Source of the DNA: a virus
IMG/VR virus record: IMGVR_UViG_3300010885_044017
Location: 62,001 to 126,000 of that record
Reading direction: 5' to 3' (one strand)
Length of the DNA stretch: 64,000 bases
Shown piece after piece: positions 27,401 to 47,828 of this stretch (its first letter is position 1; each line of letters opens with the position of its first letter). The notes below the pieces were generated by a model. That model made no database searches. It saw only the letters and a list, made by a program, of their open reading frames with translations, and was not told the DNA's origin. Made by a program: the position numbers and the translations under genes.

Positions 27401-30400
27401 TTGTTGTCCCACTGCATAACTGCCATTGGCTTGGTTACTGTTGAAAGACTTTACTAAAAATTGTGCAGGATTGCGTAAATTGCCGTTTTCGTCTACAGGG
27501 ATAATACTCAACAATCCCGGACGTGCAAATCTTGCATCAGTATAACTGTCACCGTTGTTCCAAACATAGCCAACTTCTAAGTCGCCCCATAATACTAAAT
27601 TTCCACCGGTGTAGGGTGCAACACCATAACGTGTTTCCCACCAAAGGGGTTGTTCGCTAAAGCCCAACATTTCCCACGGTGCTGTGTTAGGGGCTACAGT
27701 GTCGTAAAAATATTGATAAATGGCACGCCAAGTTCCCGGCAAGGCTTCTCCGTTGACTGTGTCAAAGAATCTGCTGAAGTTCCAAGTGAATGGATCGTCT
27801 CCAACAAAATACGTATTACTGGTAAAGTCAACTCTATTGGCACCAACCCATTGCAAAAAGCTTCTGCTTAATAATCTTGTAAACTCTGCATTGGTGTAAT
27901 CTGTTGTACGAAATTTTCCCGGAACTGTGTCATAGATGTTGTTACTGACCACAGTGGCATCAATTTTGATATTGTTGTAAATACGCAATTCAAATTCCAA
28001 CAGCAATTGATCTCTGAAATCGTTAAATGCTGGTGTTATACTGCCGTCATGTCCTTGTATTACATTGATAGGATCGACATAAGTTTCATCTAAATAAATT
28101 TTAGGAGTAAATTTAGGATACAATCCTAATTTAGTCGGAGTTTCAGGAATATAATTTCCGTCAGTGTCACTGTACTCGTTGATTGTAATTACATCGTCCA
28201 CAGCCAATGAGATTTTAAACGTAATACCGGCACGTGTGGTATCAAACACATAGTCTTGACCTTTGGTCAATTGCACATTGTTGACATATACCAGTACCGA
28301 TTGATTGCTCAACTCAGTATCAACAAAAATGTTTGTTATTTCGTAATCTATCTGTTCAGCATCAATCACTGTGTAAGTAATAGTATTTTTTAACGGACCA
28401 TATGGAACCATGTCACTATAATACCACGGGAACGAGCTGTTCTTAACACTGTTAATAGTCAACAATATAGAGTCCAACATGCCTGGAATGTCGTTGGTGT
28501 CAATGGTTTTTAATTTAACAGCCGATTCAAGTATTTTGTTTTTAATTCTGCCGTAATTGTGTCTGGCCAGTTCTAAGCCTTTTAAGAAATTAATTTCGGG
28601 ATCAACTAAAAATAATTCACTGTACAACACTGGGCTGGCGTTTTGTAAAATATTTCCGCCTTGAGCTTTGATGGGTCTATCTCTGAGATTATTAGCACCA
28701 AATGCTGAACCTGTGACTTGATTGCTGTTGGACACCAATGTTACCAAGTGGTTACGCAACTGTCCCAAAGTTAAACTAGAAAAATTAGTGTTTTCAGTGT
28801 TGAAGTTTAGGTTATCCGGAACTTGATAATAACCCAAGGCACTGACTGTTTTGCTGTAAATCAAAATATCTATTTTATCGTCAATGGCCAAGGTGGAGTC
28901 TGTTATTTTTACATACAGTTTAACACCGGCTGATACTGTTTGAAATTGTGCAGTGGTCAATTCGACAAAGTTTTTAAAAACTTTAAAATAAGGTATTGTG
29001 GTTCTAGCTTCAGGTCGTATGTCAATTTCAAAATAACGATTTACACCATCATACACTCCACTTATCAGCTGATACTGACGGCTGGGTTCAGTAACTTTGG
29101 CCCACGAATTTCTTGCGGCACTGGCAACAAGTCCAGAATTTTTTCTTAGTGTGCCCGCAGAATGAATATTTTCTGTTTGTGTGGCAGAGGCGGCTGTGTA
29201 TGAAAATACATCTGTATCAAAATTGTTATTGAACTGTATATCACCAACTTGATTAAATGTTCTATAACTCAAAGGGAAACCTAAGATTTGGTCATCAACA
29301 CCAGTGCCTGGTTGGTATGAAAAGATTTTTGTTCCTCCAACAACAGTTCCAAGATTATTAGTAGCAGTAGCAAAAGTAGATGCGGGATATATTGTAACGT
29401 CGCCCAGGCTGATGCCATTGCCGTCGTATACATCAAACATGGGAGTTTGATTGACCCCAGTCTTTTGTTGCCCTGCAATCCAGTTGCTACCGTTGAACCA
29501 ATATTCTGTGCCTTTGTTGGCTCCTTGTAACACAATTAAATTATTGTAAGTGCTGGTCTCACTGTCTTCTGCCAGACTTAAAGTAATAACAGGAGTTTGA
29601 CTGATCTCCGAAATGTTGATAACAAATATTTGATTTCTCACTGTGGGATCAAAATCATTGGCAAACACCACACGTTGCCCGTTTTGTAATGAGACCCCGT
29701 TTAATTGAAACGACCCACTAAGCTCAACTGTGTTACGTGCATCTGTTGTAGTCAAGTCAAATATGTCTACTGGAGTTTTTGCCACACGTCCAAAATTATA
29801 AAGTTGCAAATCAGCTTCAAATTCAATAATGGGACGGTTGGCTCTGACGTTTTGGTCAAATACTGGTACTTCGTTGTTGTAAGAGGCTGCGGCTTTGATA
29901 ACATCAATGTGGAACCAACGATTACTACGTGTCCACGGATTTAAATCTTGACTGGCACGATTGATTGTAATGTAGTCCGGAGTGCCAATGCCGTTGGCAG
30001 CATATGGCTCCGGTGTTTGAAAATTTGTTGCTAATAATAATTGTATAGCAGTTCCTACACCCTCAACATAATATGCGTTGTTGGCATAAGTGGCAGGCAC
30101 AGCACTGGCATCAAATTGAATTTTTAATCCGTTGGTGAATACAACACCGTTGGGGCTGGTATAATCTGCTTTACCCACAATGTCATCATCAACTTTTAAT
30201 GTGTTGTCATCAATTGCAACAAGATTAAATTGTCCCGCATATCCGGCACTGACACCATCTTGATAATAAATGGTAGACAACGGTGCTGTGATGTTTGGAA
30301 TTTGTTTGTACGTAAGAAACTGTTGGTCTAAATAAAAACTATATTCTGCATAGTTTTGTCCACTGGCTACATAAATTTTTTGATTTTTTGTCACAGTGGT

Positions 30401-31438
30401 GATTGATATCAAACTAATAACCGGGTCTTGGGCCAATGGATCAACAGCTTGAATTTGCCAAACATTCCTACGTGTGGCTTTGGGTACAGTGTTTCCGTCG
30501 ACTGTCCAATAGGCATCATCAATATCACTGTTGGTAAAGATAAAAGTTTTACCCAATAACTGCGATTTTACTCCGTCAAGTCCGCCCAGGGCCGCCAATT
30601 GGCTAAGCGTGGCGCCTTGAATTTGATTGTAATGCAAATCAGTTGAAGTATCCACAGTGCCCGACCCAATATCATTATTGGGGTATTGCATGTAAATGTA
30701 ATAATCTTGTGCTGTGGATTGCGGAACTCGAAATGTAATGGTGCCCACATCGGTGCCATTGTTTTCTATTCCCAAGATGTCTCTACTGCTTAAATTACTT
30801 TGATTGTTTTTTAATCCCGATGTGCCTATAGTGCTTTGAATCCAAAAAGGATAACCAGGTTGATTTACTACAAACTGATAAGTACCGCCACGGGCTAACC
30901 GCACGGCTGGATTTTTTGCCAACCCTGATCCAGAAAAACGATAGGCTCCATTGCCGGCATCTCTTGTCACGGTGAAAGTTTGAGTTTGATCCACACCGGC
31001 ACCAAACACTTCCACTGTGGTTGGTCCGTCGGTTAACCAATAGTATTGATTAAAATTTACAAATTTGTCAAAATCAAATAAGCCATCAAAACTATAAGTT
31101 TCACTGGAAAACAATCTACTGTGATCGTTGACAAAGCCGCCACTGTATCCAATTTGATTAATTAAATCAATATAACTGCTAAAAAATTCCACTGTGCCAG
31201 TTTTATTTTTAACTACTACACTGGGCTCTAGTTGATAATTCTGCCTTAACGCACTGCTCTCAGGCTGGTAGTTATTGGAATTTTGATACGTTGGTGCAAA
31301 TTTACGACCCACATAAGCATTGACTTTTCTCAAGTCTGGCGGAGTAACCAATTGGTCCAGGGTAGCACCCAAGAACTTACGATTGGTGTCTGTCCTAAAT
31401 ACTTCAGGTAAAAAATTTGCAGTTTTTATTGATGCCAT
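18473..31438 (-). CDS. Giant virion structural protein (4,321 residues) with FG-GAP-like and dockerin-like segments
   Basis: A single intact frame of almost 13 kb. The N-terminus (TANFLPEVFRTDTNRKFL, then FDFDKFVNFNQYYWL) matches large structural proteins of T4-like cyanophages. Residues ~2230-2830 hold several FG-GAP-like blades with the pattern FG-x4-S-x-DG/GNWLLYVGAPG-x-GNVYVY, probably a beta-propeller. Near residue ~2313, inside this region, DVNNSGTVSPLDALAY has the calcium-loop spacing of a type I dockerin. Residues ~3490-3560 carry GSGYTSTPTI-type repeats, and three or four copies of a ~65-residue repeat (VGNxIxQxxTGAxG, then GTFVxN, then YRNGSNLxIKP) sit near 3580, 3640, 3785 and 4240. 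It lies between gp6 and the fibre genes. A baseplate-attached fibre or large tail appendage is likely. Confidence 0.8.
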   Translation of the reverse strand: MASIKTANFLPEVFRTDTNRKFLGATLDQLVTPPDLRKVNAYVGRKFAPTYQNSNNYQPESSALRQNYQLEPSVVVKNKTGTVEFFSSYIDLINQIGYSGGFVNDHSRLFSSETYSFDGLFDFDKFVNFNQYYWLTDGPTTVEVFGAGVDQTQTFTVTRDAGNGAYRFSGSGLAKNPAVRLARGGTYQFVVNQPGYPFWIQSTIGTSGLKNNQSNLSSRDILGIENNGTDVGTITFRVPQSTAQDYYIYMQYPNNDIGSGTVDTSTDLHYNQIQGATLSQLAALGGLDGVKSQLLGKTFIFTNSDIDDAYWTVDGNTVPKATRRNVWQIQAVDPLAQDPVISLISITTVTKNQKIYVASGQNYAEYSFYLDQQFLTYKQIPNITAPLSTIYYQDGVSAGYAGQFNLVAIDDNTLKVDDDIVGKADYTSPNGVVFTNGLKIQFDASAVPATYANNAYYVEGVGTAIQLLLATNFQTPEPYAANGIGTPDYITINRASQDLNPWTRSNRWFHIDVIKAAASYNNEVPVFDQNVRANRPIIEFEADLQLYNFGRVAKTPVDIFDLTTTDARNTVELSGSFQLNGVSLQNGQRVVFANDFDPTVRNQIFVINISEISQTPVITLSLAEDSETSTYNNLIVLQGANKGTEYWFNGSNWIAGQQKTGVNQTPMFDVYDGNGISLGDVTIYPASTFATATNNLGTVVGGTKIFSYQPGTGVDDQILGFPLSYRTFNQVGDIQFNNNFDTDVFSYTAASATQTENIHSAGTLRKNSGLVASAARNSWAKVTEPSRQYQLISGVYDGVNRYFEIDIRPEARTTIPYFKVFKNFVELTTAQFQTVSAGVKLYVKITDSTLAIDDKIDILIYSKTVSALGYYQVPDNLNFNTENTNFSSLTLGQLRNHLVTLVSNSNQVTGSAFGANNLRDRPIKAQGGNILQNASPVLYSELFLVDPEINFLKGLELARHNYGRIKNKILESAVKLKTIDTNDIPGMLDSILLTINSVKNSSFPWYYSDMVPYGPLKNTITYTVIDAEQIDYEITNIFVDTELSNQSVLVYVNNVQLTKGQDYVFDTTRAGITFKISLAVDDVITINEYSDTDGNYIPETPTKLGLYPKFTPKIYLDETYVDPINVIQGHDGSITPAFNDFRDQLLLEFELRIYNNIKIDATVVSNNIYDTVPGKFRTTDYTNAEFTRLLSRSFLQWVGANRVDFTSNTYFVGDDPFTWNFSRFFDTVNGEALPGTWRAIYQYFYDTVAPNTAPWEMLGFSEQPLWWETRYGVAPYTGGNLVLWGDLEVGYVWNNGDSYTDARFARPGLLSIIPVDENGNLRNPAQFLVKSFNSNQANGSYAVGQQGPVETAWRRSSDYPYAVQEAIALARPGYFFGTLMDVTRYYKDTMLDQYVLSDSLQRITPGAIRINGQSSGTSIRRVAGYINWIAEYLRGQGIEPVDKISGYLDSVTVQLAYKMAGYSDKSFLQVLAEQASPTSTTNSVVIPAENYTLELYKSTPVKTVAYSAVIVEKSENGYTVSGYDTSNPYFTIIPSLANNNAYPVTVLNDTGIVYQDYQKYKITVPYGFEFTNKQQVVDFLISYERYLIGSGFVLADKDPNLETQRDFKLSVQEFLAWSQQGWAVGTVMILSPVLNHLTVNSTSGVVDKIENAPLQSRILDPEFNFIKYNELTVTRTDNVFTLTAVSGRTIALAVLDIVEYEHVVIFDNVTVFNDVIYVPSLGNRQYRLKLIGQKTGSWTGALNPPGFVYNSSTVDVWQPGVDYLLGSLVTYKDVYYTNTQNLTATNTFSPSQWKRLNKNQIQTGLLPNFSYNAGKSLRYNNFNDPELQGDFANFVGNEIGFTPRQYLTNFGIDIPTQAKFYQGFIRQKGTLNSISAFTAAGFNGVSSTINLYEDWAMRVGEYGATNNNRYVELILSEGVFKGEPAVFNFLNNGTTATDNIVSVYPDNIYRSSIGYSPTIFKDRDDASFYENDILTAGYVSVADVDTQIFNIQAYGQLNSQMANVAPGYKIWAAQDNVSSSWAVYRVNETNVLINSVFYNVDYTITATTNRAHGFGRGDYVVIKGFDGRVDGFYQVSSVVDNYNFNLIIDVNSYPVLKSAGTITGLGVVYRLQTVRIKSPTDLNAITPLNQWLDGDKLWVDADQNTPGWLVYNKSSPWTTANASVVTSPLSMQLDANSYISNSGFGTVSTINQAGTFAAASLPNLGMGNVIAFVSNVTNGYNFTMVANLGAPPSNSASLFGASLHSSGNLLYVGNPGNGSTEYGRTHIHKFNATDTGTPTVNTTAVATAILQASVDVEPGKTLFKTTTVGGRPLADVNNSGTVSPLDALAYNQWIGGVNTNPGQISWITGTLHPYILANPATYGAYINDFFTLSQTLSSPFTGNTGDQFGYSVSASDDGTWLYVGAPGAGNVYVYHANTTSYYSLANTIVGNSYVSTGNAVSSRFGYVVSTTSEGDYTAIGAPGESIAGVSSAGAVYTFNRSQESFIASGNTAYYPQYAISANTLLVTVNGNVVTTGYTSNSSAVTFTATPTVGTTITIDTNKIQLVKKLTETVPGSGNQFGTVAHISGNDADVYASSPGYSEVGYHSGVVYRFANYGANYGTVAGTVYDPVVTVGHNLYINGQLVTFGANVGGSLVGNLQSIVANINSANIPGITATAQDYGLLTLTSNVAVPYKKLLITPGTGTALANIGLDVYTNVQSIKHPGSADVNAFGSQLTSSADSNNLIVSANRGQTNNAMTFDQLLTRFDADATSFSDMLQGSGVVYIYGLVEGSLTSTTLDQYVLVQQLQNNAVSSNDQLGSSLALNANILLVGAPGDSNHLTTDSVSQALTSIPNAGTYYTYKNISGNVGWDIIGSEQPQVDISSITRMYLYNNVTDTLLTNFDHIDPAKGKVLGIAEQDLDYITSYDPAIYNAGGGPEAGPLGGASPDFHWGSAQVGKTWWDTSLVRYVDYEQGNLTYRANHWGEMFPGSTVQVCEWVASSVPPDQYTGSGQPLYTEFQSYVEENYVDQATKVVRTRYYFWVKDKTTVPTNSTRRNSVKILQEIIANPTAQSVPYAAVLRNDAVSLYNIGDYLTGAGNTVVFHADTDALINNNIMHNEWQLVQEGNSNSLIPTRIVEKIIDSLAGVDQYGNTIPDATLTPQTRIGLDFTQTVFVDRMTALKNFVEYVNNVMIQYPIVEQRNINNLYSAEAQPADTEYDLAIATRAELDYINTATTLSNYTVLVINNETQNGLWTVHTWTGTAWSTVRTQSYYTPFYWSFADWYDSTYNSSDTVKYLANTYADLATLTASANDTAQVANRGNGEFAVYRYNGSAWDLVGLENGTIQYNSTLYTTDVAANEIRILFETIRDSIFVDTLIGNFNGLFFYLINYVLTEQKSVDWVFKTSFVTVLHQLKKLEQFPAYIQDNQTYYENYINEVKPYRTSIREYLINYQGTDDFTGDITDFDIPATYIANINAYRSPDGSLPSDAYSLATLPQYSQWNNNHSYSINTVTVSNSGANYYTTPTITVTGGGGTGANIQAVLDVASNTIARFDVVDSGSGYTSTPTIQINGSGVNAAGYPKLVSEQFITSVPVQTITTVGNAVIYVGNIVTQPNTGASGVAYSASTGNIITLKDVVGTFVSNQWLFSDSSNLSIRPGVATVSMKLTGNLVAYTGNIINQPGSGAQAEVYYNTTGNVVSLWNYSGTFVGNAYLYRNGSNLNIKPAYYTVSTVTPVGSYTAFEDQSYNKVRTFTTHVKFDRTTYTSNISAWQPNVTVSANSRVSYQGSAYQANSTVYSSATLKLSSNISATVGDYVTQGNNVSANARIVSIASNSLITVANLTGNFLRRTGNIAINGITSVASPVAVTNIFDYGKYSLLSTANLSNASDRITAAYQPGSGMPGLDLAQLMSGIEYPGVQVQGVKFGATTSNIASNILYFYSNTSTLYSSNVAVLDFTTYGLQPTLPISIVNLDTGLRSNVTILNVTTGSMFLVGAMANIALGANISIVYYDYNDPAYLDTNIQSFYRDSALGTRAEDINVDGGGYYDTYSSHAPEELIPGVTFDSLNMMVYTQTGNANVGYRVVHNMSANAASVSTQYWPQYYAIFSANTTALSANLNITDSNVYVTSTAGLATPLPQYTQPGVIYVNGEKITYYTIDRVNNVLGQLRRGVDGTGAPVVHPAGTAVVESSVNQLIPTSTTRGANVHLGSWLNLKVSANVSILDDNLSNDIVDNISNNITSYPQDLLEYLTLNTNATVTVGNTIAQLATGASGVVAANSTGITVTIWAANATGAFSSNILANTYVYRNGANLTAKTVGISYDTVDGTGLAGSNTTQAVFIRGY

Positions 31439-31450
31439 TGCTGTTCCCGA

Positions 31451-34400
31451 TTATACGATTGTGTTTGACCCGGCCAAGGTCTGATTAATTTGTGCAGCAG
31501 TTATGGCACTGATGATTTGTACATTGCTGGCTGTGGCACAACTTATGATAATTTCATCTGGATTGGAATTAATCTGCATGAGTCCACCAAACGCCACATC
31601 AGTGTTGGCTGGCACAATAATAATACTGGCCACGTTTGGTGCCAGTGTGTTATGCAAATAAGTAGCTAGTTCACTGAAATAAAATGTCTCGCCAAAGTTC
31701 CAATTGGCTGTGTCAAAATAAGTGTTGATTGCAGCAATCACTCCACTGATTACATCATTATCGCTGATGGTTAAATTTGGATTTTTAACCACTTTAAATG
31801 TGGCTTGCAGTGCTGAGTCTGCCTTGGCGCCAAACACCGGCTTATATCTGCCAGGGTTATAAATGATTGTGTCACTGAGTGCTTTGTAATTTTCTAAGCT
31901 GGTGGCACCAGAACCATAGGTTAATTTTAATTCTTCATTGGTTGGCAGTGCTGGTTCTGTCAAGGTATTGGTAGTATCTCTTACCCATGCTGTGTAATCG
32001 GTGGTATAGTCTGTGGTCAACAAATACAAGTCCATAATATTGTTGGGACTGGGATCTATACGGCGTGTGTTTGGGCTGTTGTGTCTATACTGGAAGTTTA
32101 ACTTTTGTCTTCCAACTTCGGCTATGTAGCTGGTAGACTGTGCAAGTGTACGGTTTCCAGCAGCAGAAATTGACAGTACATAAAATTTATCTTCGCTGGT
32201 GGCATAAAATACTTGCCCATCAACATATAAATTTTGATTGGTTAATATAGCACTTTGAGTGGTATAGGTTGTCACTATCAAGCTGTTGTCAACCGGAGCG
32301 GCTGTTAAAAAGTTTCCAACGTTGGTGTTGGCATCAGTGACCTGTTGAAAAAATACATACTTACCTGTGGTTGCAGTGTTGGCAACATTGGTAAAAATAT
32401 CTGGATCATCAGGAACACCGTCATTGTTGACAGCACTAAAAGTAACCAATACCTGTGTATAGTCAATTCTTCCATCCGCTGTGACAACATTGTTGTAAAT
32501 GTACCATAATTGATCTTGTCCCAATGCTGTGGTTAAACTGTCAGGTGCTGTGTTGTTTTTTAATATCGATACCTGATCAATCACAGTTGCTCCGGATTTG
32601 CTGTCAAATACTTTTACTTTTGGATCAAAGTAAAAACGTGTTTGTTCTAAACTTTCAAATACATATTTTAAATTACGATGGGCTAGATTGTAGTTGACAC
32701 CGTTGTAGGCAAAGGATACTATCCAACTGCTGTCTAGTCCCCCACCCGTGGTATCACCTGTATTGGCCAAGCTGAATGCCGAGGTAGTGTTTAAATCGGC
32801 TGGTGCAATAATTTTCCAAGTTTGTGAGGGTACATCGTATCTGATTCCAAAGTTTTTATAACTCTTTATCAAATTAACCATGGTGCTAACAAATGCCAAG
32901 TTACTGAAATCATTTTTAAACACAGGAATAATACTTTCAAGCACAGCACCTGTGGGTATGTTTTGTGTTATTTGTAATGTATTACTGTTGGCAACAGATG
33001 CCACTGCTACCCAAATATATTTTTTATCATTTTCATATACCGGAGTACCAGACACTATTACGTTTTGTGCATTGAAATAATTTCCTGTGCCGGCTGTGAA
33101 TTTTAATAGTGTTCCGTTAGTGATATATTTAAAGTTGGTGTTGGTTACGTATCCAACCGTTTGAATTACAGTTCCGTTGGTCAAGTAACCAGTGCTGCTA
33201 CCAGAATTGGCCGTGGCCTGTGTCCACGTGGTGGTCACAGCAGGTGTATATCTTGTGTAATTGGCATAATAGAAATGCTTAACTTCTGTACTGTTTAAAA
33301 TAGGTATTACTGTGTTGTAAATTACATTGTTTATGTCGTTGGTTGATGCAAAGCCAAACGTTGAGCTGGGCACAGAATTTTGTTTATACAACCAACCATC
33401 TGTACCAAACATGTTGGTACTGGAATATTTTCCAGTGACATCCAGCACATCTAGATATCTACTGATACCGGAACTGGTTCTGTTCACTGCCTTGACTTTT
33501 AAAATGCTACTGAAGTTGGTGTACGGGAAAAGATTATAGTCTTCACCTGTGATCATTCTGTTCTGTGTATAGTACTGCTGTGGTGCTTTTACACGAATGT
33601 CGTCCACTAGTTCTCTTGTGGCAGCATTGGTCACTGTGTAGTATAAACTGGCACGTACAGTCAGCGTTTCTACTCTGTTGCTCTTACTGACATAGTTTAA
33701 AGCAATCACAATGTTTTGCATTTCGTCGGGAGTAATTTTATAATTTAATCCGTTGCTGACTCGATAAAATAATTGGAAATTTCCCTGCGGAATGTTGGCA
33801 AAACTACCGTCACCAAATACTAAATCAATTTGATCATTGGCTCTGGTATTGATCTGATACAAGTTACGATTGGTGCTTTGATTGTAAATGATGTTGATGC
33901 CGGCCACAGCAGGAACACTGCTCCATATGGTATTGGGTACTCCAGCATTGTCAAGTTTATACAACCAAACATCTGTGTTGTTGATGTTGTCGTAGTTGAC
34001 ATTGACTATGCGATTGGGTAAACTCTGTTGTAGGTTTAAAACTAAATTGTTCAGTGTACCTTGTTTAAAGTAAACAAAATACCCGGTGTTGTTGCTGGCA
34101 TTGCCAAGATTGTCATTTTGATACAGGATATTGAATTTTCCACTGGGTGCCGGACTGGCTTCGTATACATAACTTTGTCCTGCTGATGTGGCACTCACTG
34201 CTTCAAACGGTGTACTGGTGCCTTCTATTGTGGCATTGAAAGTGTAAGTGGGAATCACTCCGCCCAATAAATTAATGCTGTACTCACTGGTCATGATGCC
34301 ATTGATGTCTTGTGTGTTGCCCGGAGTGCCGATGTTTTGATTGTTAATTAAAGCAGCATTAAATATGGCAGTGAATTGTTCTTGCCAATCTTCGTTGGTG

Positions 34401-34840
34401 GTGTCATTCCAATTGATCAACAGGTTGGCTAGATCTAGGCCGTTGCTGTCTGTCACACTCTCGCTGGTGGTGATGCTGTCAATTTTCAAATAGCCCGCAG
34501 CAGGTACAGTACGTTTGGCATTGTAATTGATTAAACTGGCCAGTTTTAAAATACTGTCACGTCTTTGTGCAGTGTCAAAAAAACTTTCACGTGCATTTAA
34601 ATCTGTTCTAAATGCTAGACTCTGTCCTAAAAAAGCAATCAAGTCAATTAATGCTATGTACTCTGAGCTTTCTGTAAAATCATTAAAATCTTCTGGATAG
34701 TAGTTACGCAGATAATCGATCATGCTTTTGCGTATGGTTTCAAAGTCATAGCTTTGAAAGTTGGCATTTTGAAAACTCTGGTACAGGGTAGTCCAGTCCT
34801 GGTTTACCAATAAATTTGTTTGACGTGTAGTGATAGACAT
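31451..34840 (-). CDS. gp6: Baseplate wedge protein gp6
   Basis: The N-terminus is diagnostic of T4-like gp6: YDFETIRKSMIDYLRNYYP, then DFTESSEYIALIDLIAFLGQ and LAFRTDLNARESFFDTAQRR. At 1,129 residues it is much longer than T4 gp6 (660) but similar to cyanophage forms. In T4, gp6 dimers form the continuous ring that ties the six wedges together at the core of the baseplate. The middle and C-terminal parts are beta-rich and Asn/Thr-rich. It follows gp25 and precedes the giant gene by 13 bases, and a late-promoter-like element lies 22 bases upstream of its ATG. Confidence 0.93.
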   Translation of the reverse strand: MSITTRQTNLLVNQDWTTLYQSFQNANFQSYDFETIRKSMIDYLRNYYPEDFNDFTESSEYIALIDLIAFLGQSLAFRTDLNARESFFDTAQRRDSILKLASLINYNAKRTVPAAGYLKIDSITTSESVTDSNGLDLANLLINWNDTTNEDWQEQFTAIFNAALINNQNIGTPGNTQDINGIMTSEYSINLLGGVIPTYTFNATIEGTSTPFEAVSATSAGQSYVYEASPAPSGKFNILYQNDNLGNASNNTGYFVYFKQGTLNNLVLNLQQSLPNRIVNVNYDNINNTDVWLYKLDNAGVPNTIWSSVPAVAGINIIYNQSTNRNLYQINTRANDQIDLVFGDGSFANIPQGNFQLFYRVSNGLNYKITPDEMQNIVIALNYVSKSNRVETLTVRASLYYTVTNAATRELVDDIRVKAPQQYYTQNRMITGEDYNLFPYTNFSSILKVKAVNRTSSGISRYLDVLDVTGKYSSTNMFGTDGWLYKQNSVPSSTFGFASTNDINNVIYNTVIPILNSTEVKHFYYANYTRYTPAVTTTWTQATANSGSSTGYLTNGTVIQTVGYVTNTNFKYITNGTLLKFTAGTGNYFNAQNVIVSGTPVYENDKKYIWVAVASVANSNTLQITQNIPTGAVLESIIPVFKNDFSNLAFVSTMVNLIKSYKNFGIRYDVPSQTWKIIAPADLNTTSAFSLANTGDTTGGGLDSSWIVSFAYNGVNYNLAHRNLKYVFESLEQTRFYFDPKVKVFDSKSGATVIDQVSILKNNTAPDSLTTALGQDQLWYIYNNVVTADGRIDYTQVLVTFSAVNNDGVPDDPDIFTNVANTATTGKYVFFQQVTDANTNVGNFLTAAPVDNSLIVTTYTTQSAILTNQNLYVDGQVFYATSEDKFYVLSISAAGNRTLAQSTSYIAEVGRQKLNFQYRHNSPNTRRIDPSPNNIMDLYLLTTDYTTDYTAWVRDTTNTLTEPALPTNEELKLTYGSGATSLENYKALSDTIIYNPGRYKPVFGAKADSALQATFKVVKNPNLTISDNDVISGVIAAINTYFDTANWNFGETFYFSELATYLHNTLAPNVASIIIVPANTDVAFGGLMQINSNPDEIIISCATASNVQIISAITAAQINQTLAGSNTIV

Positions 34841-34896: not shown

Positions 34897-35274
34897 CTAT
34901 CTTACTGTGAGTCGTTGTGTATTGGAATCAAATTGCAAGTTCAATGCTGTCAATTGATTGGTGGGAATATACAGTAGATCCACCATTATTTGTATACCGT
35001 TCTGGTATTCGTTGATGGTTATGTTTTGTAAATTGGTGCGTGGATCATATCCCACCACCGACTTGACATCATCGATGATGGCTTGACGCACAGTGGCAGT
35101 CATGGGTTCAAACAACAGGCTCCAAACAATGGTGCCAAAGTCCGGTTGCATGACTTTTTCACCTTTTTTAATGTTGAAATGATTGATCAAGTCCTGTTTG
35201 ATCAAGTCAATGTCAGTGACACGAAACTTTTTGTATCGGTTGACAGTGCTGAATCCTTTGTATAGTGTGGTCAT
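34897..35274 (-). CDS. gp25: Baseplate wedge protein gp25
   Basis: This 125-residue protein matches the gp25/GPW family. DIDLIKQDLINHFNIKKGEK near 21-40 leads into the conserved PDFGTIVWSLLFEP segment, then AIIDDVKSVVGYDPR and the closing beta-hairpin IQIMVDLLYIPTNQ. In contractile systems this protein sits in the inner baseplate and seeds sheath attachment around the tube. The length is normal for the family (T4: 132). It is located between gp5 and gp6, a usual order in aquatic T4-like phages. A late-promoter-like element is unusually close, eight bases from its ATG. Confidence 0.93.
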   Translation of the reverse strand: MTTLYKGFSTVNRYKKFRVTDIDLIKQDLINHFNIKKGEKVMQPDFGTIVWSLLFEPMTATVRQAIIDDVKSVVGYDPRTNLQNITINEYQNGIQIMVDLLYIPTNQLTALNLQFDSNTQRLTVR

Positions 35275-35295: not shown

Positions 35296-38200
35296 TTACG
35301 CCGATCTCACATCAGAAATTATGTTAGCCGATACCGCTGCCACGATGGCCATGTGATTGACACTGCTTGCTATGTGGGTAACTCTTGGTGCTGGCGGAGG
35401 AGCTGGATAAGGGTTACCGTAACCAGCATCGCCATAATTACGAGGATTATAATAGTTCACTGCTCGTACTACATTTGATGGTAAATTGGCCAAACGCATG
35501 CCCACTGTGGGGAACCCGTCAATACACACCATGAGGTCTATTTTCATACCTGTGGCAGCCATTTGGTTAACTATTTCAGCACCTTTACTAAATCCAATTA
35601 ATATTACCTTCTTGGTTCCACGATTTTTTACAACATAAGCAGAGGCTCCGCCTATATCAGTACAACTAAACACTTCTGCGGCAGCACCTAGCCCAGTTAA
35701 TTGTGCGGCCAGGGCTCGAACACCGGTCTTGTATGCTTCACCGGCTTTTTCTAGTCCAGTGATCAATACAACCAATTGGTCACCGGGACCACTGGCCTTG
35801 GGTTCTGTAGTGGCATCTGTGGCCTTGGTGTTGATTGTTTGTATATGTGGCCAATCGTTGGGGATAGTTTTTAAATTGTATTTGCCTAGACCCAATTCTG
35901 TGTCAAGTGCATATACATCGTGTTGAATGTCCATTGCTTGACCAAGATTGTGTTGACTTGTGCCCGGGGGTGCAACCAAGTTTCCTTTTTTGCCTCCTGC
36001 AACCCAGGCATTATAAAGTCCCGCTTGCTCTTCATTGGTGCGAAGTGTTGAATTAACCTGCATTTTTTTATCGTACTTTTCTTTATAGGCCTTGGCCAAT
36101 TGCAGGGTGGCCGATCGTAGTACGGGGGTGGATGCATCAAAGCGAGCTCGGGTACCAGTTCCGCTGGATCTAAACAGCATCACTGTGTCAGGATCAATGC
36201 TGAGGTCGATTGGGCCAGCAGCATTGCTGGTGCCGGTTATGGCTTGAGCACTTAATACATCAATTGCATATCTACCGTGATTAAAGTATTCTTCAGCAGT
36301 GCCGGCCTCCCCAGCAACTGTAGGTGGTGTTTTTACCTTGCCTGACTGGCGCCATTCGGCAGCCAATGCCGCACTGCGATACTTGTGTGCCACAAACAGC
36401 ATACCGGCGGCCATACAAATGTCATCTTCAGGTTTGATACCTTTGTTGGTGACCAGTGTTTTATAGTTGGCCAAAAATTCTTTATTTTGTAAATCATCTT
36501 GCAGTTGTTTGTTGGCAAAAAAATCTTTTTGACTGCGTATGCTGTCTTTACCGGTCCAACTTTCGTTTTTAGATAATGTTTGTGCACCGTATTGTTTGAT
36601 AGCATCTGGTTTGATATATCCAGCTTCGGCCAAAAGGTACGCATCCACTTGATACTTGCCAATTCTTGTGCCATCACCCGGGGTGGCCTTGGCTGTGGCA
36701 TCGGAATTACTAGCAGAAGATCCAGCTGTTATTTCTGTTATTATTTTTTGCAATGCACCAGCCACATTTGGATAACTTGTTGGATGCAGTGGTGGTTTAT
36801 CGCCGCTGGGGTAATCGGTCAGTGCCACAGTTTTATCGCCGGTGATGCTGGCAACTTGCGTTACAGCAGCGCAGGCTATGCTGTCATAGGGTAAAATCCA
36901 AATGTATTTTTCTGCTCGCAATGCGGCTCTAATGGCCTTTAAGTTTTCAATCAACAGTGTTTTATTACCAACACCTTTGACAATATCATTGCTACCGCAA
37001 GAAATTACTGCCACTTTGACTTTACCTACCCAATCATTTTCATACTGATAATCTTGATAAGTTCCCACACGTCCGGAGGCCGGTGCAGGAGGATTTTTGG
37101 CATTGGCCAATATGGTTGTACTGTTGTCACCAACTCGGGCCATGACACTGGTTGAGGACAATTTTTTCTGTAGTGCTTGACCAGTTCCCCAAGCAATACT
37201 GTCGCCCATGACCAATATTGTACCTTTAGTGCCGACGTTAATAGCTGCACCTGCAGGTGTTGAAGTTTTCCCACCAGTGCTGGCATAGTCCCACTGGCTT
37301 TCAAAATAGCCTAATTCGGCATGCATATTGGTGGCATAGGCCTGTGTCAACAAAGGAGCTGCGGAGCTGATGGCCCCTGGTGATTTATACAGTTCAGCTT
37401 TACCTAACCAATCTTTGGGACAGCTGGATGATACTGTGCGACCGTATGCGTTGTTGATGCCGACGTCGGTGTTGGCACTGGTGGTTTTAGATCCCGAAGC
37501 AATGGCATTTCCTGAACTGTCTGTGACTTTAATTCCTGAACTAGACTGTAGTGTGCCTGGATCCACAGCAGTACCAGCATTGGCCAAGCATTGTTTTACA
37601 GCGTTTAATTTGGTTTGCATAAATGTTTCAAAATCTTGTACATTTACGTAACCTTTTCCAGTTTTGTCAAAGTGGTTTTGACTATAGGCTTTGTTTTGAA
37701 ATGCAGTGTAGGTTGCACCCGGAGGAGATCCATTTAATCCATACACTATATAAGTTAAATCTTGGCCAGTGGCCACTGGCCAATTGATACACGAATACAC
37801 ATCTACCATGCGACCTTTGCTTTTCTTCCACGGCGCATTTAATTTAAAATATTTTTCAACTAGATCTAACTGCTGTACTCGGGACAGCCCAGTAAATGCT
37901 GGGATATCACTGGGATTGTAGCCCACTAGTTTTCTAGCGTCACCACCAAACTGTATCAACCCGTAAAATCCCAATCCGTTGGGCTCGGCTGGATCCATTG
38001 TACCACCGGTTTCTAAATACATAGCAGCCAATAACCATAGCCAATTGCTAATTCCTAAATTTGCAGCCACTTGTTTGGTTTTATCTAAAAATGCTGTATC
38101 GGTAGACCAAGGTGCCGAACCTTTGGCACCACCGTGTACTCTGCCCAAATCTAATTTATTACCATTGGGTTTGGGTAATATATAGTCACCAGGAGATGAA

Positions 38201-39675
38201 GTGGTTCTAGGTGGGCACACACTGGCAGGCAATATCTGTACGGGTGCTTCTGTAGGGGCACCAGGTGTGGAAGATTTAATCCAAGGTTGATGTGCTGGGA
38301 ATATTGATACTATGCTGGCAGCTTGATTAGCCACACTGTTCCACAGTCGTGTTTTAGTATCGTAAGTGGTATCAGGAAACTGTTGAGTTTGTAAACTTAC
38401 TCCTGATCCAGCATTGTTGGCCCCACCGGTGTCTATGGCTACAGAGCCGCCTTTGAGTTCTAATGCACCGCCCGATCCCACCGACACAGACCCACCGCCC
38501 AAGGTCAATGCACCTCCGGCGCCAATGTTGATTTTAGATCCATGAACATTGGTGGAACTAGTAGCAGAAATGTTGATGTCGGCACTGACTGCATTGACAT
38601 AGGTGGCACCTCGTAGGTTCAATGCACTGCCGGCTTCAATGTTGATGTTCTTGTCAGCACGTAGGTTTAAATCGCCTTGAGCACGAACACTGAAACTGCC
38701 ACCGTTGTAGATGTTCATGTCACCATTTTTACTCAGCTCAATCCAACTACTGCCACTGGAGTTAATGATAAACATGATGCCTTCTGTATCATTCATTAGG
38801 ATCTGATGTCCTGCAGATGAACGTATGCGTACCAACTGGTCTTTGCCGTTGACATCACCGTCGTCCACGACAAATGTATGTCCACCTTTTCTGGCCTTGA
38901 CTTCGTAGTCAAGAATGTTGATTGACCCGTCGGCTAATTTTTTCTCGTAGGTGGGATCATCTGCGGGATCGTTGCCCAAGGCTCGGCCCGGGGTACTGAT
39001 ACCAAACACATGACTGGGACTTTCTCTATGGCTGTTGGAACTTATGGCACCACGCACAGCATCTCTGTCCAGTCCTTGCTGAAACAGCACATTGGCTTGA
39101 AATTCGTGTATGGGTCTGGCATTGTTATAGGAATCTGCAGCAAAAGCATCGTCTCGATTTTCGTTGTATTCTGCCACTGGCAATACTTGACTGCCGTCTG
39201 TGACTAAACTGCTTTTTAAATCTGCACTGGCCAATTCTGTGTCGGTTTTTTTAGCACCTGCCAAGGCTGGTACCATGTAATGACTTATAGTGGGGTTGAC
39301 GCAGGCAAACCAATAACCGCGATCTGGATCACCATTGACAAATGTACACAGCACTTGATTGCCCACATCCGGTGGCACCATCCACATGCCGTAGGTGTGA
39401 TTGGTTGTTTCAAATTTATTATTAGCGGTTTGATCGCCTACAAATGTAGCACCAAAAAACGGGCTTGCATAATTTACTGTTTGCCACGCGGATTCCACAC
39501 CTTGATCTCCTAGACCAAATTCTGGAATCCATACACGTAATCTGCCCAATCTGCGAGGATCTTTATTATCTTTCACCACTCCCATAAATGTGGCCGTGTC
39601 AAATTTGATGCCCGAGTCACCGTCTCGCTTGGCCCACTTGGGTATTTTGGTTCCTGCTACTTTATCTATTGGCAT
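35296..39675 (-). CDS. gp5: Multi-enzyme baseplate hub/tail lysozyme, gp5-like (1,459 residues)
   Basis: The N-terminus (FMGVVKDNKDPRRLGRLRVWIP) is the gp5 OB-fold that sits on the tail hub; residues ~290-430 are a Gly-rich beta-helix. Then come five enzyme-like modules. (1) ~515-690: lysozyme/transglycosylase-like with LETGG (catalytic Glu ~556) and GFYGLIQF. (2) ~815-960: SGNH hydrolase with GDSIAWG (~823), CGSNDIV and LHPTSYP. (3) ~1003-1120: GKYQVDAYLLAEAGYI, a second lysozyme-like segment. (4) ~1165-1280: M15/VanY-like peptidase with TLRTNEEQAGLYNAW, SQHNLGQAMDI and WPHIQ supplying zinc ligands. (5) ~1300-1459: alpha/beta hydrolase-like with nucleophile elbow IGFSKGAE (~1358) and VNHMAIV. 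T4 gp5 (575) has one lysozyme. It should penetrate the envelope and cut peptidoglycan. Confidence 0.88.
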   Translation of the reverse strand: MPIDKVAGTKIPKWAKRDGDSGIKFDTATFMGVVKDNKDPRRLGRLRVWIPEFGLGDQGVESAWQTVNYASPFFGATFVGDQTANNKFETTNHTYGMWMVPPDVGNQVLCTFVNGDPDRGYWFACVNPTISHYMVPALAGAKKTDTELASADLKSSLVTDGSQVLPVAEYNENRDDAFAADSYNNARPIHEFQANVLFQQGLDRDAVRGAISSNSHRESPSHVFGISTPGRALGNDPADDPTYEKKLADGSINILDYEVKARKGGHTFVVDDGDVNGKDQLVRIRSSAGHQILMNDTEGIMFIINSSGSSWIELSKNGDMNIYNGGSFSVRAQGDLNLRADKNINIEAGSALNLRGATYVNAVSADINISATSSTNVHGSKINIGAGGALTLGGGSVSVGSGGALELKGGSVAIDTGGANNAGSGVSLQTQQFPDTTYDTKTRLWNSVANQAASIVSIFPAHQPWIKSSTPGAPTEAPVQILPASVCPPRTTSSPGDYILPKPNGNKLDLGRVHGGAKGSAPWSTDTAFLDKTKQVAANLGISNWLWLLAAMYLETGGTMDPAEPNGLGFYGLIQFGGDARKLVGYNPSDIPAFTGLSRVQQLDLVEKYFKLNAPWKKSKGRMVDVYSCINWPVATGQDLTYIVYGLNGSPPGATYTAFQNKAYSQNHFDKTGKGYVNVQDFETFMQTKLNAVKQCLANAGTAVDPGTLQSSSGIKVTDSSGNAIASGSKTTSANTDVGINNAYGRTVSSSCPKDWLGKAELYKSPGAISSAAPLLTQAYATNMHAELGYFESQWDYASTGGKTSTPAGAAINVGTKGTILVMGDSIAWGTGQALQKKLSSTSVMARVGDNSTTILANAKNPPAPASGRVGTYQDYQYENDWVGKVKVAVISCGSNDIVKGVGNKTLLIENLKAIRAALRAEKYIWILPYDSIACAAVTQVASITGDKTVALTDYPSGDKPPLHPTSYPNVAGALQKIITEITAGSSASNSDATAKATPGDGTRIGKYQVDAYLLAEAGYIKPDAIKQYGAQTLSKNESWTGKDSIRSQKDFFANKQLQDDLQNKEFLANYKTLVTNKGIKPEDDICMAAGMLFVAHKYRSAALAAEWRQSGKVKTPPTVAGEAGTAEEYFNHGRYAIDVLSAQAITGTSNAAGPIDLSIDPDTVMLFRSSGTGTRARFDASTPVLRSATLQLAKAYKEKYDKKMQVNSTLRTNEEQAGLYNAWVAGGKKGNLVAPPGTSQHNLGQAMDIQHDVYALDTELGLGKYNLKTIPNDWPHIQTINTKATDATTEPKASGPGDQLVVLITGLEKAGEAYKTGVRALAAQLTGLGAAAEVFSCTDIGGASAYVVKNRGTKKVILIGFSKGAEIVNQMAATGMKIDLMVCIDGFPTVGMRLANLPSNVVRAVNYYNPRNYGDAGYGNPYPAPPPAPRVTHIASSVNHMAIVAAVSANIISDVRSA

Positions 39676-42680: not shown

Positions 42681-42986
42681 TTAAATTCCCAAATCTGCGG
42701 TCAATTGAGACTTGGTGGGGATCTGTATCACCGCCCCGGAACGAAAATCCAACAAGGGATCTTCAATCACATTGGGGTTACGAGCAGCAAACACCCACCA
42801 TAAAGCACTGTCACCATACAAGTCAAATGCCAACAGGTCGGGACGAAATTGATAAATTGCGTCTATAGTATAAACTACATCGTCATCCTGTGCAGTGATG
42901 GGTCGTGCAGTTAATACATCAAGAAACTGACCAAAACTTGCAGTGCCAAAGTACGGGCTGGATCTACTGTAGGTAACTTGAGCCAT
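42681..42986 (-). CDS. gp53: Baseplate wedge protein gp53-like
   Basis: This 101-residue protein carries the gp53-like pattern of aquatic T4-like phages: SSPYFGT, FLDVLTARPITAQDDDVVYTI, then YQFRPDLLAFDLYGDSALWWVFAARNPN and a closing IQIPTKSQL. In T4, gp53 joins adjacent wedges in the baseplate. It is about half the T4 length, as usual in cyanophage-type versions. Its ATG overlaps the upstream stop (TAATG), so translation is coupled to 42986-43894, and its stop lies four bases before the hub candidate. Confidence 0.85.
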   Translation of the reverse strand: MAQVTYSRSSPYFGTASFGQFLDVLTARPITAQDDDVVYTIDAIYQFRPDLLAFDLYGDSALWWVFAARNPNVIEDPLLDFRSGAVIQIPTKSQLTADLGI

Positions 42987-44015: not shown

Positions 44016-44891
44016 TTGCGCCAAAATTACTTAAATAACAAAGATATACTCAAAGAAATCCACAAAAGCAAAACTACTTATTGCAGTTACAGCGACCCCG
44101 GTTATGTCAACTATGACATGATACTGCCCACAGTGGACAAAATTAACAAGAAAAATACACTGGAAGGCCGTAGGTTACGTGCAGAACGCTTGGGCAAATT
44201 GGCACACGAAACTGCTGTGGCTGAAACCGGTGTCAAGAGAAAATTGGATGAATTTCAAGTCAAGTTACGTGATGTTGCCGACAGTGATGTAGTATTCAGA
44301 ATCATGACATGGGATCACATTCCTGTAGATGATGTCAAAACTCGAAAAGCCCGCATGAGTGCCTTGGACATTGATGACTCAGAAGATCCACTTATTACAG
44401 AATACGACGAATTAGATACCACACACAACAAATATGTCAAGGTAAACTTTCCCCCATTTCAGCACTGGCGAATCAATGAGTCAGGCGCGGCAGAATGTGT
44501 GGGCAAAAGTCACTGGAGTGGAGCTGTTGACACAGGCCGATTCAATAGAGATCACGGAAAAATGACAGCAAAATTGGCACACATGTTTGTTAAACTGTGC
44601 GAACGTTATGCCACTCGTAGCAACTGGCGTGGCTACACCTACAATGACGAGATGCGTAGCCAAGCACTGCTACAACTGAGTCAAATTGGCCTGCAATTTG
44701 ACGAATCAAAAAGTCAAAACCCGTTTGCCTACTACACTGCTGCAATTACCAATAGTTTTACCCGTGTGCTCAATATCGAAAAGCGAAATCAAAATCTTCG
44801 TGATGACATACTGGAAATGAACGGCTTAACACCCAGTTATACTCGACAGGGCGACTGGGGTTCAGGTGTGGGCCACGGGTCAGACGAATGA
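44016..44891 (+). CDS. gp55: Late-transcription RNA polymerase sigma factor gp55
   Basis: The start is a TTG at 44016 with GAGGAA eight bases upstream; no ATG is well placed. The protein has 291 residues, longer than T4 gp55 (185). The diagnostic core is KLAHMFVKLCERYATRSNWRGY, DEMRSQALLQL, then KSQNPFAYYTAAITNSFTRVLNIEKR and NLRDDIL, corresponding to sigma region 2. gp55 replaces the host sigma factor and reads TATAAATA promoters on replicating DNA, together with the gp45 clamp. The first ~130 residues are charged and phage-specific. It overlaps the SGNH gene by four bases. Its target motif recurs before most structural operons here. Confidence 0.93.
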   Translation: MRQNYLNNKDILKEIHKSKTTYCSYSDPGYVNYDMILPTVDKINKKNTLEGRRLRAERLGKLAHETAVAETGVKRKLDEFQVKLRDVADSDVVFRIMTWDHIPVDDVKTRKARMSALDIDDSEDPLITEYDELDTTHNKYVKVNFPPFQHWRINESGAAECVGKSHWSGAVDTGRFNRDHGKMTAKLAHMFVKLCERYATRSNWRGYTYNDEMRSQALLQLSQIGLQFDESKSQNPFAYYTAAITNSFTRVLNIEKRNQNLRDDILEMNGLTPSYTRQGDWGSGVGHGSDE

Positions 44892-45640
44892 TAGTTTATT
44901 CAAATTCTTGCAGTTTTGGTAGCATTCAAGAGCATGTTATTTACCCTGAATTGGTATCAACTGAACTTAAAGGAAAATTATTAAACGAGGGAATTCCAGG
45001 TTCGTGTAACCGACGTATTATACGTAGTTCTATTAGATCGCTAATTGATATTAGAAAACACCACATTGGGCCTGTACTAGCATTGATTGGATTAACATTT
45101 ATCAGTAGAACCGAACTATGGCAACCACATTTGCCATCCAATGGCAACGACGGAGATTTTCACCCAATCACAAGTTTATCTATAAAGAAACTCGATTGGT
45201 CTACCGGGCTAGTTAATACTAAACACAATGTATACGAATATGCCGATTCTGAAGTAAAAAATTACTATAAACAGTGGCTTCTACACTTTAGTAAAGAAGC
45301 AGAAGTTACTAATTTACTGACCGATATAATTATGTTTGAGTCTTTTGCTAAATCCAATGGCATTGACTGTTTAATTTTTTGTAACTGTCAAAAATTTCCA
45401 TCATTACCTGAGGTGTCGACCTCGGCTCCTTTTTTAAATAGTTTAGTAGAATTTTCATATACAAAAAATTCCATTATTGATTTATGGAATTTTAGTTTTG
45501 CAGATTTTGCTTTGGACAACGGGTATCAGCCTAAGGACTATTTAAAATATGGAGCGAATGGGCATCCAGGAAAAGTTGCCCATGAAAAATTTGGGTTTCA
45601 TCTACTAGAAATATACAAGACAAATATTACTAAAGAGTAA
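44888..45640 (+). CDS. SGNH-like hydrolase
   Basis: This 250-residue protein begins MIVYSNSCSFGS with the likely nucleophile Ser9 in the N-S-C-S block. GIPGSCNRR near residue 37 replaces the usual GAGN, and a C-terminal YGANGHPGKVAHEKFG segment supplies the catalytic His. The pattern parallels the SGNH proteins at 2215-2955 and 6607-7326, but the Cys in the second block is unlike both. It is AT-rich compared with gp55 and gp47 on either side, and its ATG overlaps the gp55 stop by four bases, as for an inserted accessory gene. Substrate unknown. Confidence 0.68.
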   Translation: MIVYSNSCSFGSIQEHVIYPELVSTELKGKLLNEGIPGSCNRRIIRSSIRSLIDIRKHHIGPVLALIGLTFISRTELWQPHLPSNGNDGDFHPITSLSIKKLDWSTGLVNTKHNVYEYADSEVKNYYKQWLLHFSKEAEVTNLLTDIIMFESFAKSNGIDCLIFCNCQKFPSLPEVSTSAPFLNSLVEFSYTKNSIIDLWNFSFADFALDNGYQPKDYLKYGANGHPGKVAHEKFGFHLLEIYKTNITKE

Positions 45641-45684: not shown

Positions 45685-46704
45685 ATGACCAACTTATTTA
45701 AAAAAGCAGCAGTTTTCACAGACATACATTTTGGCTTGAAAAGCAACAGCACCTTGCACAACGAGGATTGTTTGGCATTTGTCAAATGGGCCACTGCTCG
45801 GGCCCGGGCAGAAGGCTGTGAAACTTGTATTTTTACCGGTGACTGGCACAACAATCGTGCGTCGATCAATATTCTCACACTGGGCTACAGCCTACGTGCT
45901 TTGGAGCATTTGAATGAAAACTTTTCGCAAACATTCTTTATTCCCGGCAATCACGATTTATATTATCGTGACAAGCGTGATGTACAAAGTGTGGAGTGGG
46001 CCCGACACCTGGCCAACATCCATATTTGTAACGATTGGACTACTATGGGCGATGTTACTATTGCTCCGTGGCTGGTGGGCGACGACCATAAACGATTAAA
46101 GAAGCTGTCCGGCAAGTACATGTTTGGGCATTTTGAACTGCCGGGCTACTTGATGAATGCCATGGTGGCCATGCCGGATCACGGTGAAGTCGATCCTCGA
46201 ACGGATTTGACCGGATTTGAACATGTTTATTCTGGACACTTTCATAAAAGACAAACTAGAGGCAATGTCACTTACTTGGGCAACTGTTTCCCGCACAACT
46301 ATGCTGATGCCGGTGACGATGATAGAGGCCTAATGATACTGGAGTGGGATCATGAACCGGTGTATCATGCATGGCCCGATCAGCCCAGATATCGTGTGTT
46401 TCAACTCAGTGATGTACTCAAGCACACCGAGTCCATGTTGGAACCCAATATGCATGTTAGAGTTAACCTAGACATTGATATTAGTTACGAAGAAGCCACT
46501 TTTATCAAAGAAACTTTTATAGATACGTATAAGTTACGAGAGATTACACTTATACCGGCCAAAGTGACAGAGTTGTCTGATTACGAAATAGCTGGCAATA
46601 TTAATTTTGAAAGTGTGGATCAAATTGTGTTTGGACAGTTGAGCAACATCGAAAGCGAACAATTCAATAAAAATCTGTTATTAGATATCTATAGGAATTT
46701 ATAA
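45685..46704 (+). CDS. gp47: Recombination endonuclease subunit gp47 (SbcD/Mre11-like)
   Basis: This 339-residue protein has every metallophosphoesterase motif: FTDIHFG (Asp13, His15), GDWHNN (Asp53, His55), GNHD (89-91 region), GHFELPG and GHFHKRQ. With gp46 it forms the Mre11/Rad50-type nuclease that resects DNA ends for recombination-dependent replication and degrades host DNA. Length matches T4 gp47 (339). The gene is separated from gp46 by two radical SAM genes, which is not the usual adjacent arrangement. Its stop overlaps the first radical SAM ATG by one base. A weak sigma-70-like promoter (TTGCAA, 18 bases, TACACT at 45673-45678) would make its message leaderless. Confidence 0.94.
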   Translation: MTNLFKKAAVFTDIHFGLKSNSTLHNEDCLAFVKWATARARAEGCETCIFTGDWHNNRASINILTLGYSLRALEHLNENFSQTFFIPGNHDLYYRDKRDVQSVEWARHLANIHICNDWTTMGDVTIAPWLVGDDHKRLKKLSGKYMFGHFELPGYLMNAMVAMPDHGEVDPRTDLTGFEHVYSGHFHKRQTRGNVTYLGNCFPHNYADAGDDDRGLMILEWDHEPVYHAWPDQPRYRVFQLSDVLKHTESMLEPNMHVRVNLDIDISYEEATFIKETFIDTYKLREITLIPAKVTELSDYEIAGNINFESVDQIVFGQLSNIESEQFNKNLLLDIYRNL

Positions 46705-47828
46705 TGTCTGACTCTTTTTGTGTTAATCCTTGGATTAGTATGCACTATTTCATGGGCAAACAAATTAATCCTTGCTGTTTGTTTGCAGGCGGGATAAAAA
46801 CAAACAACATCAATGAATATGCCAATAGTACACAATTGGCCAACATAAAACAAAATTTACTCGACAATAAAAAAATTAACGAATGTGCTACCTGTTGGAA
46901 TCAAGAAAGTCAAGGCGGTGTCAGCAAACGCCAACAAGATAATAAAACTTACAAGAAAATATTTGATTATCAATTTAAAAATCAACTAACAGAACCCAAT
47001 ACCAATTTTGTTGAATACTATGTTAGGTTGGGAAATCATTGCAATATACGATGCACTACCTGTAACGATACACTAAGTACTGGCTGGATAAGTGAAAAGA
47101 AAAAATTCAATTTGCCGTCGGGTCCTGTGCTGAATATTACATCTGCAGATCCAATTTGGCAACACCTCAAAGACCATGCAAAGAATATAGCCAGCATAGA
47201 ATTCATCGGGGGCGAACCGTTTATGATGAACATCGACGAACAACGCGATTTATTTGATTATTTTGTAAAGTCCGGCGATGCTAGACATATTAAATTAAAA
47301 TACAATACAAACGGCACACGTATGCCTGCAGAACAAATAGAATTCTGGAGCAAATTTGGTGAGATTGAGTTAAATGTTAGTATGGACGGAGTAGAGAATC
47401 AATTTGAATATTTAAGATTTCCGGCAGTATGGTCTGAATTTGATGCAAATTTAACCAAGTACAAAGAATTGGCCACGATATTACCTAATTTAAAATTAAC
47501 GGTGATGCACACATTGAGTATATTTAATATTGGGTATGTGCAAAAAACTATAGATTATTGTAAAGAAAAAGAAATTGCAATATTTTTTAATATGTTACAT
47601 GCTCCAACTTATTTTAATCTTTATAATTTTACAGCCGATGTGTCTGAATGGATACAAAATCAAATCAATGAGGTTGATGATACAACTATTAAAAATATAC
47701 ATGACCGTTTATCAAAGGAACCAGGTTTCTCCAATTCAAAGTTTTTGAGTAAATGCCAAGAACTTGACCGTCGTAGAGGATTAAGTATAGCAGAAACATT
47801 TCCAGAATTGTACCAATGTTTAACTTAG
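46704..47828 (+). CDS. Radical SAM protein with N-terminal twitch-like domain, inserted after gp47
   Basis: This 374-residue protein has the N-terminal twitch pattern FCVNPW near 5-10, NPCC at 22-25 and ECATCW at 60-65, then the radical SAM motif CNIRCTTC with Cys113, Cys117 and Cys120. IEFIGGEPF is the SAM-binding GGE. It is closest in layout to 914-2230 and 1-927 of the minus-strand island. The last ~20 residues (DRRRGLSIAETFPEL) echo the TTFPE end of the other twitch-type members. The gene is AT-rich relative to gp47. It begins on the gp47 stop and overlaps the next radical SAM gene by 13 bases. Role unknown. Confidence 0.87.
   Translation: MSDSFCVNPWISMHYFMGKQINPCCLFAGGIKTNNINEYANSTQLANIKQNLLDNKKINECATCWNQESQGGVSKRQQDNKTYKKIFDYQFKNQLTEPNTNFVEYYVRLGNHCNIRCTTCNDTLSTGWISEKKKFNLPSGPVLNITSADPIWQHLKDHAKNIASIEFIGGEPFMMNIDEQRDLFDYFVKSGDARHIKLKYNTNGTRMPAEQIEFWSKFGEIELNVSMDGVENQFEYLRFPAVWSEFDANLTKYKELATILPNLKLTVMHTLSIFNIGYVQKTIDYCKEKEIAIFFNMLHAPTYFNLYNFTADVSEWIQNQINEVDDTTIKNIHDRLSKEPGFSNSKFLSKCQELDRRRGLSIAETFPELYQCLT

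Follow-up and report, generated by a model that had tools for sequence, protein, structure and literature searches.

The hub gene and its modules

We analyzed a 64,000-nucleotide stretch of DNA (the window), which covers positions 62,001 to 126,000 of the IMG/VR record IMGVR_UViG_3300010885_044017, a virus contig of 151,913 bases. Positions 35296-39675 of the window are occupied by a single open reading frame (ORF) of 1459 amino acids, which lies on the minus strand, as do all of the hub features given below, and which, judged by its sequence, is a baseplate hub of the T4-gp5/VgrG type. An OB fold and a beta-helix are followed by five predicted enzyme modules, one of which is nested in another: lysozyme-1, lysozyme-2 with an SGNH hydrolase inside it, an M15 zinc peptidase and an alpha/beta hydrolase. 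Residues 31-422 matched the family phrog_13211, 'baseplate hub subunit and tail lysozyme', with an E value of 6.7e-39. The OB fold is located at residues 26-130 or so (39286-39600; Pfam Phage_base_V, E 1.6e-8), and the gp5/VgrG-type beta-helix needle at residues of about 285-425 (38401-38823), where the phrog_13211 match extends to residue 422. The needle region also gave weak VgrG and DUF2345 matches, and beta-strand repeats can be read from its sequence.

An earlier note on this DNA had proposed five enzymatic modules on a gp5-type hub. Family or fold matches bear out the count of five, the motifs ETGG, GDSIAWG, SQHNLGQAMDI and GFSKGAE lie where the note had put them, and in the window none of the five modules lacks its named catalytic residues. 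Every part of the hub belongs to known families.

Lysozyme-2 and the SGNH domain nested in it

The second lysozyme had been described as a separate segment behind the SGNH domain. Through alignment with related hubs, we found instead that this segment is the back half of one domain, and that the half with the catalytic Glu precedes the SGNH. The first half of lysozyme-2, delimited by aligning hubs with and without the insert, spans residues of about 743-803 (37267-37449) and contains E792 in the segment ELGYFES; the second half, at residues of about 1002-1145 (36241-36672), contains the GKYQ motif and matched phrog_27932 'tail lysozyme' (E 1e-11). The catalytic-Glu segment is separated from GKYQ by about 15-40 residues in hubs without SGNH and by 214 in the window, and the roughly 200 extra residues in the window and in the related hubs L002 and L031 are the SGNH. 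The SGNH domain is therefore nested inside lysozyme-2. The structure model of residues 735-1148 had a mean predicted local distance difference test (pLDDT) score of 85.8, with high confidence for most of the SGNH core and of both lysozyme-2 halves, the latter being modelled as a confident helical structure. The two joints scored below 50, which fits the expectation for a domain hung on two flexible linkers.

The lysozyme-2 Glu was found in 17 of 19 aligned members and was replaced by Gln in the other two, and all three five-enzyme hubs (window, L002 and L031) retain both the Glu and GKYQ. Pfam Transglycosylas matched the domain weakly, in 3 of 16 members (E 0.024). Pootjesviridae hubs have a member of the lysozyme-2 family as their tail lysozyme (tblastn E down to 2e-29). 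In a number of other hubs, including L117, L118 and L174, lysozyme-2 is without the catalytic Glu and often without GKYQ, and these copies are apparent pseudo-enzymes.

The SGNH hydrolase covers residues of about 815-985 (36721-37233), with S826, G849, N896, D959 and H964 as its catalytic residues. The first four are conserved in all 16 homologues compared, and H964 in 15 of them. The Pfam match was weak (E 0.001, below the cut-off), and the fold matched TesA and OatA with a Z score of 15.3 and a root-mean-square deviation of 2.4-2.5 over 142-146 residues of the 735-1148 model. The other matches listed were thioesterases, aryl esterases and carbohydrate esterases, so the substrate cannot be read from the fold.

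A profile scan of viral contigs for this small SGNH family gave 128 related loci, of which 80 were kept. Among these, the family occurs as stand-alone ORFs of about 126-166 amino acids; it also occurs at the C-terminus of the tail protein phrog_350 (E 3.3e-66) and, together with phage-lysozyme domains, in a second hub lineage (L032-L034). Its occurrence in several tail-protein settings shows that fusion to tail proteins took place repeatedly. The phrog_350 tail proteins of L035-L065 (e.g., L043:665-2677) are about 670-700 amino acids long and end in a member of the family. A tie to lysis genes was unsupported: the endolysin and tail lysozyme families had one member each among the top 25 families listed for 98 neighbours of stand-alone relatives. 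The earlier note had also heard in the hub SGNH an echo of three stand-alone SGNH genes, which are probably the genes at 2215-2955, 6607-7326 and 44888-45640. These gave weak DUF6071 matches, two of them also GDSL matches, and have no GDS motif, and we rejected a close kinship.

Lysozyme-1, the M15 peptidase and the alpha/beta hydrolase

Lysozyme-1 is a lytic-transglycosylase-like module at residues 522-701 (37573-38112). It matched PDB 9udh, 'lytic transglycosidase' (E 1.5e-7), as well as phage proteins annotated as transglycosylases. Its catalytic residue E555, the Glu of ETGG, is invariant across 8 hubs. The 'transglycosylase' genes of RisingSun and Moabite were considered as multi-enzyme hubs and rejected, as they are short separate genes (about 295 and 224 amino acids). 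The C-terminal part of lysozyme-1 contains an EF-hand-like stretch (37612-37674; Pfam EF-hand_1, E 0.098, below the cut-off); relatives have a similar stretch, so calcium binding is possible.

The M15 peptidase, at residues of about 1160-1283 (35827-36198), matched Pfam VanY above the Pfam cut-off (E 1.8e-7). The HxxxxxxD motif, the further His ligand and the acidic residue three positions before this last His are all present; the three zinc ligands (H1242, D1249 and H1277) do not vary among 10 sequences, and D1274 is kept. The AlphaFold2 model of residues 1148-1459 had a mean pLDDT of 72.5, and its best Foldseek match was the endolysin Ply500 (2vo9, E 2.3e-4). The small alpha/beta hydrolase at residues of about 1298-1459 (35299-35784) gave a weak Pfam match (BAAT_C, E 0.004, below the cut-off), and its fold matched 2qjw with a Z score of 13.4 and a B. 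subtilis lipase with 12.1. The Ser-Asp-His triad (S1363, D1386 and H1441) is in order and invariant in three homologues. Relatives of this domain in viral contigs were the same hubs only; a bacterial source was also sought, and no relative was found in genome contigs, searched with strict short patterns, or in isolated phages. For M15/VanY, SGNH and the C-terminal alpha/beta hydrolase, fold prediction and search agree with the identities proposed earlier, and all three match enzyme folds.

Related hubs, selection and module replacement

The five-enzyme hub was found in three independent contigs, namely the window, L002 (84% best-segment identity to the window) and L031 (45-73% identity per module, with the N-terminus lost at the contig end). 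A fourth locus, L012, holds a C-terminal hub fragment identical to the window. Between the window and L002, the ratio of nonsynonymous to synonymous divergence (dN/dS) was 0.055-0.19 across the named domains, with 0.11 for SGNH, 0.09 for the alpha/beta hydrolase, 0.17 for M15, and 0.13 and 0.055 for the two lysozyme-2 halves. As dN/dS is low in every module, we argue that all of the modules are in use. Lysozyme-1 of the window has only 53% amino acid identity to that of L002, with a dS of 2.4 compared to 0.4-0.8 in the neighbouring modules, and L002 and L031 share 86% identity in this module. The high dS and the likeness of L002 to L031 indicate that lysozyme-1 was exchanged as a whole among close relatives. 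The M15 module of L031 is also more divergent (45%) than its neighbouring modules (60-73%).

We took a census of 104 hub ORFs (the window, 23 relatives from one search and the best 80 of a further search, with some near-duplicates and a few incomplete ORFs among them; L031 was counted apart). Lysozyme-2 was the only one of the five modules in 54 of the 104, and 29 had none. Lysozyme-1, lysozyme-2 and M15 occurred together in 12 ORFs and lysozyme-2 with M15 in six, while all five modules were present in two and one was a fragment with M15 and the alpha/beta hydrolase. Among the lysozyme-2 plus M15 hubs, GH19 takes the place of lysozyme-1 in L013 and L119. The results showed that tail tips of this type usually carry one such enzyme or none.

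Genes around the hub

The hub gene lies among baseplate genes, also on the minus strand. A gp25-like wedge gene is located just downstream (34897-35274; Pfam GPW_gp25, E 1.1e-9), followed by a gp6-like wedge gene (31451-34840; phrog_10646 baseplate wedge, E 4.3e-289), and a gp53-like wedge gene is located two genes upstream (42681-42986; phrog_7145, E 7.8e-26). A giant ORF of 4321 amino acids (18473-31438) adjoins the gp6-like gene on its downstream side. The portal protein is nearest to those of the jumbo phages Phosso (55.6%) and PA5oct (54.5%), and the contig may therefore be complete or a fragment.

Discussion

We consider it likely that this hub is the central spike of a contractile-tailed, T4-related phage, carrying a chain of five enzymes that breaches the envelope and that has grown by accretion and insertion. 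The OB fold and beta-helix form a needle, probably trimeric by analogy with T4 gp5, and on tail contraction the enzymes would pass with it across the outer membrane and reach the periplasm, as gp5 biology suggests for both the route and the order of enzyme action. Glycan strands would be the target of the two lysozymes, and stem peptides or cross-links that of M15, for which an L-Ala-D-Glu type is favoured by the Asp three residues ahead of the final zinc-binding His and by Ply500 as the closest fold. The SGNH may remove acyl groups such as lysozyme-blocking O-acetyl groups, and lipid or other acyl esters may be cut by the alpha/beta hydrolase. An attack on glycan strands, acyl groups and peptide cross-links, as the earlier note had envisaged, is supported by the family matches, predicted folds, conserved residues and purifying selection; that it happens all at once can only be supposed. 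Lysozyme-2, which is widespread, is probably the ancestral tail lysozyme, around which lysozyme-1 and M15 would have been added, and the insertion of SGNH into lysozyme-2 and the C-terminal addition of the alpha/beta hydrolase were presumably later gains.

Several points weigh against the envelope-breaching spike. The presence of the hub protein in the virion is a prediction, and no PAAR tip protein was found in the record. The activities and substrates of the five modules are likewise predicted from fold and residues. In the SGNH, Asp and His are spaced as DxxxxH in the window and L002, and as the canonical DxxH in L031. Lysozyme-2 gave no fold or solved-structure match (the fold lists were filled by SGNH, and the profile search gave none), and its Glu has been lost in a number of related hubs. 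The confidence of the alpha/beta model is middling, with pLDDT mostly 60-77. The lost Glu and the middling model also speak for another explanation, namely that some modules, lysozyme-2 and the alpha/beta domain above all, are non-enzymatic scaffold or cell-wall-binding domains: lysozyme-2 stays in the hubs that have lost the Glu, and the domain can therefore persist without catalysis. We regard this as rather unlikely for the window, where the catalytic residues of the five modules are intact, as they also are in L002 and L031 where covered, and where dN/dS is low.

It is somewhat more conceivable, though still the less probable account, that the two ester hydrolases act on capsule, lipopolysaccharide or outer-membrane lipids at adsorption, and that the lysozymes and M15 alone act on peptidoglycan. 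Phage tailspikes have SGNH domains that take acetyl groups off surface polysaccharide (reviewed in PMC5380687), the alpha/beta domain resembles small lipases, and besides OatA, carbohydrate esterases and thioesterases are among the fold matches of the SGNH. Against this, both hydrolases are placed at the distal end of the needle, one of them inside a lysozyme, which would favour the periplasm. An arrangement like that of an evolved VgrG, in which the C-terminal string consists of delivered effectors that act on the host cell and do not open a hole for DNA, is very unlikely. Domains fused behind a gp5/VgrG needle and the weak VgrG matches of that needle recall such a protein, but the gene belongs to a baseplate cluster, the phage has portal and wedge genes, and most relatives have a tail lysozyme at the equivalent place. 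That assembly produced the multi-domain ORF as a chimera is extremely improbable: the closest sequences are all metagenomic, but the independent L002 and L031 share the architecture, which refutes a chimera in practice, and every module is under purifying selection.

For the five-enzyme spike, the nesting allows a bolder and rather improbable extension, a composite enzyme in which the SGNH, placed beside the catalytic-Glu helix of lysozyme-2, would strip O-acetyl groups from a glycan strand before the lysozyme cleaves that same strand. If this were true, one tail tip would overcome the lysozyme resistance of the host wall.

Compared to known systems, the hub resembles T4 gp5 in combining an OB fold, a beta-helix needle and a tail lysozyme in one protein encoded in a baseplate gene cluster. 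T4 gp5 has one lysozyme, sited between the OB fold and the beta-helix, whereas the five enzymes of the window hub come after the beta-helix, with one nested in another. Pootjesviridae hubs (Atu_ph04, phiM9, OLIVR5 and RHph_N34) have the lysozyme-2 family in common with it, but are about 850-863 amino acids long with the lysozyme in mid-protein, and lysozyme-1, SGNH, M15 and the alpha/beta hydrolase were not seen in them among the tblastn matches. The freshwater and other metagenomic hubs L003-L011 and L116-L118 are like the window in needle, lysozyme-1, lysozyme-2 and M15, and differ in being without the nested SGNH and the alpha/beta hydrolase. The second lineage (L032-L034 and L061-L062) has a gp5-type hub with the same small SGNH family and phage-lysozyme domains, but there the SGNH lies in the beta-helix region, outside any lysozyme, and no M15 or alpha/beta domain was found. 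Evolved VgrG proteins of type VI secretion also have enzymatic domains fused behind a gp5-like needle, usually one effector domain, whereas the window protein is a phage hub in a baseplate cluster. In Tal (gp44) of Staphylococcus phage phi11 and related tail lysins, an endopeptidase and an SGNH hydrolase are combined in a tail-tip protein (PMC5380687); phi11 Tal has two lytic domains, a Gram-positive host range and no gp5 needle, compared to five enzymes here. The same 2017 review listed just five virion lysins that combine two lytic domains, and all of these belong to phages with Gram-positive hosts (PMC5380687). No comparable nested or five-enzyme hub was found in searches of the open-licence literature, which is weak evidence of novelty.

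A family with none, one, two, three or five enzymes provides a natural series from needle to multi-enzyme tool, and allows one to ask which envelope barrier each enzyme targets. The hub modules could also be a source of new antibacterial enzymes.

Elsewhere in the window, we found seven radical-SAM-like genes (914-2230, 3204-4328, 4288-5673, 46704-47828, 47816-48781, 50531-51367 and 51361-52365), several of them with SPASM domains, a number unusual for a phage. The gene at 46704-47828 matched N_Twi_rSAM with an E value of 1.6e-87.

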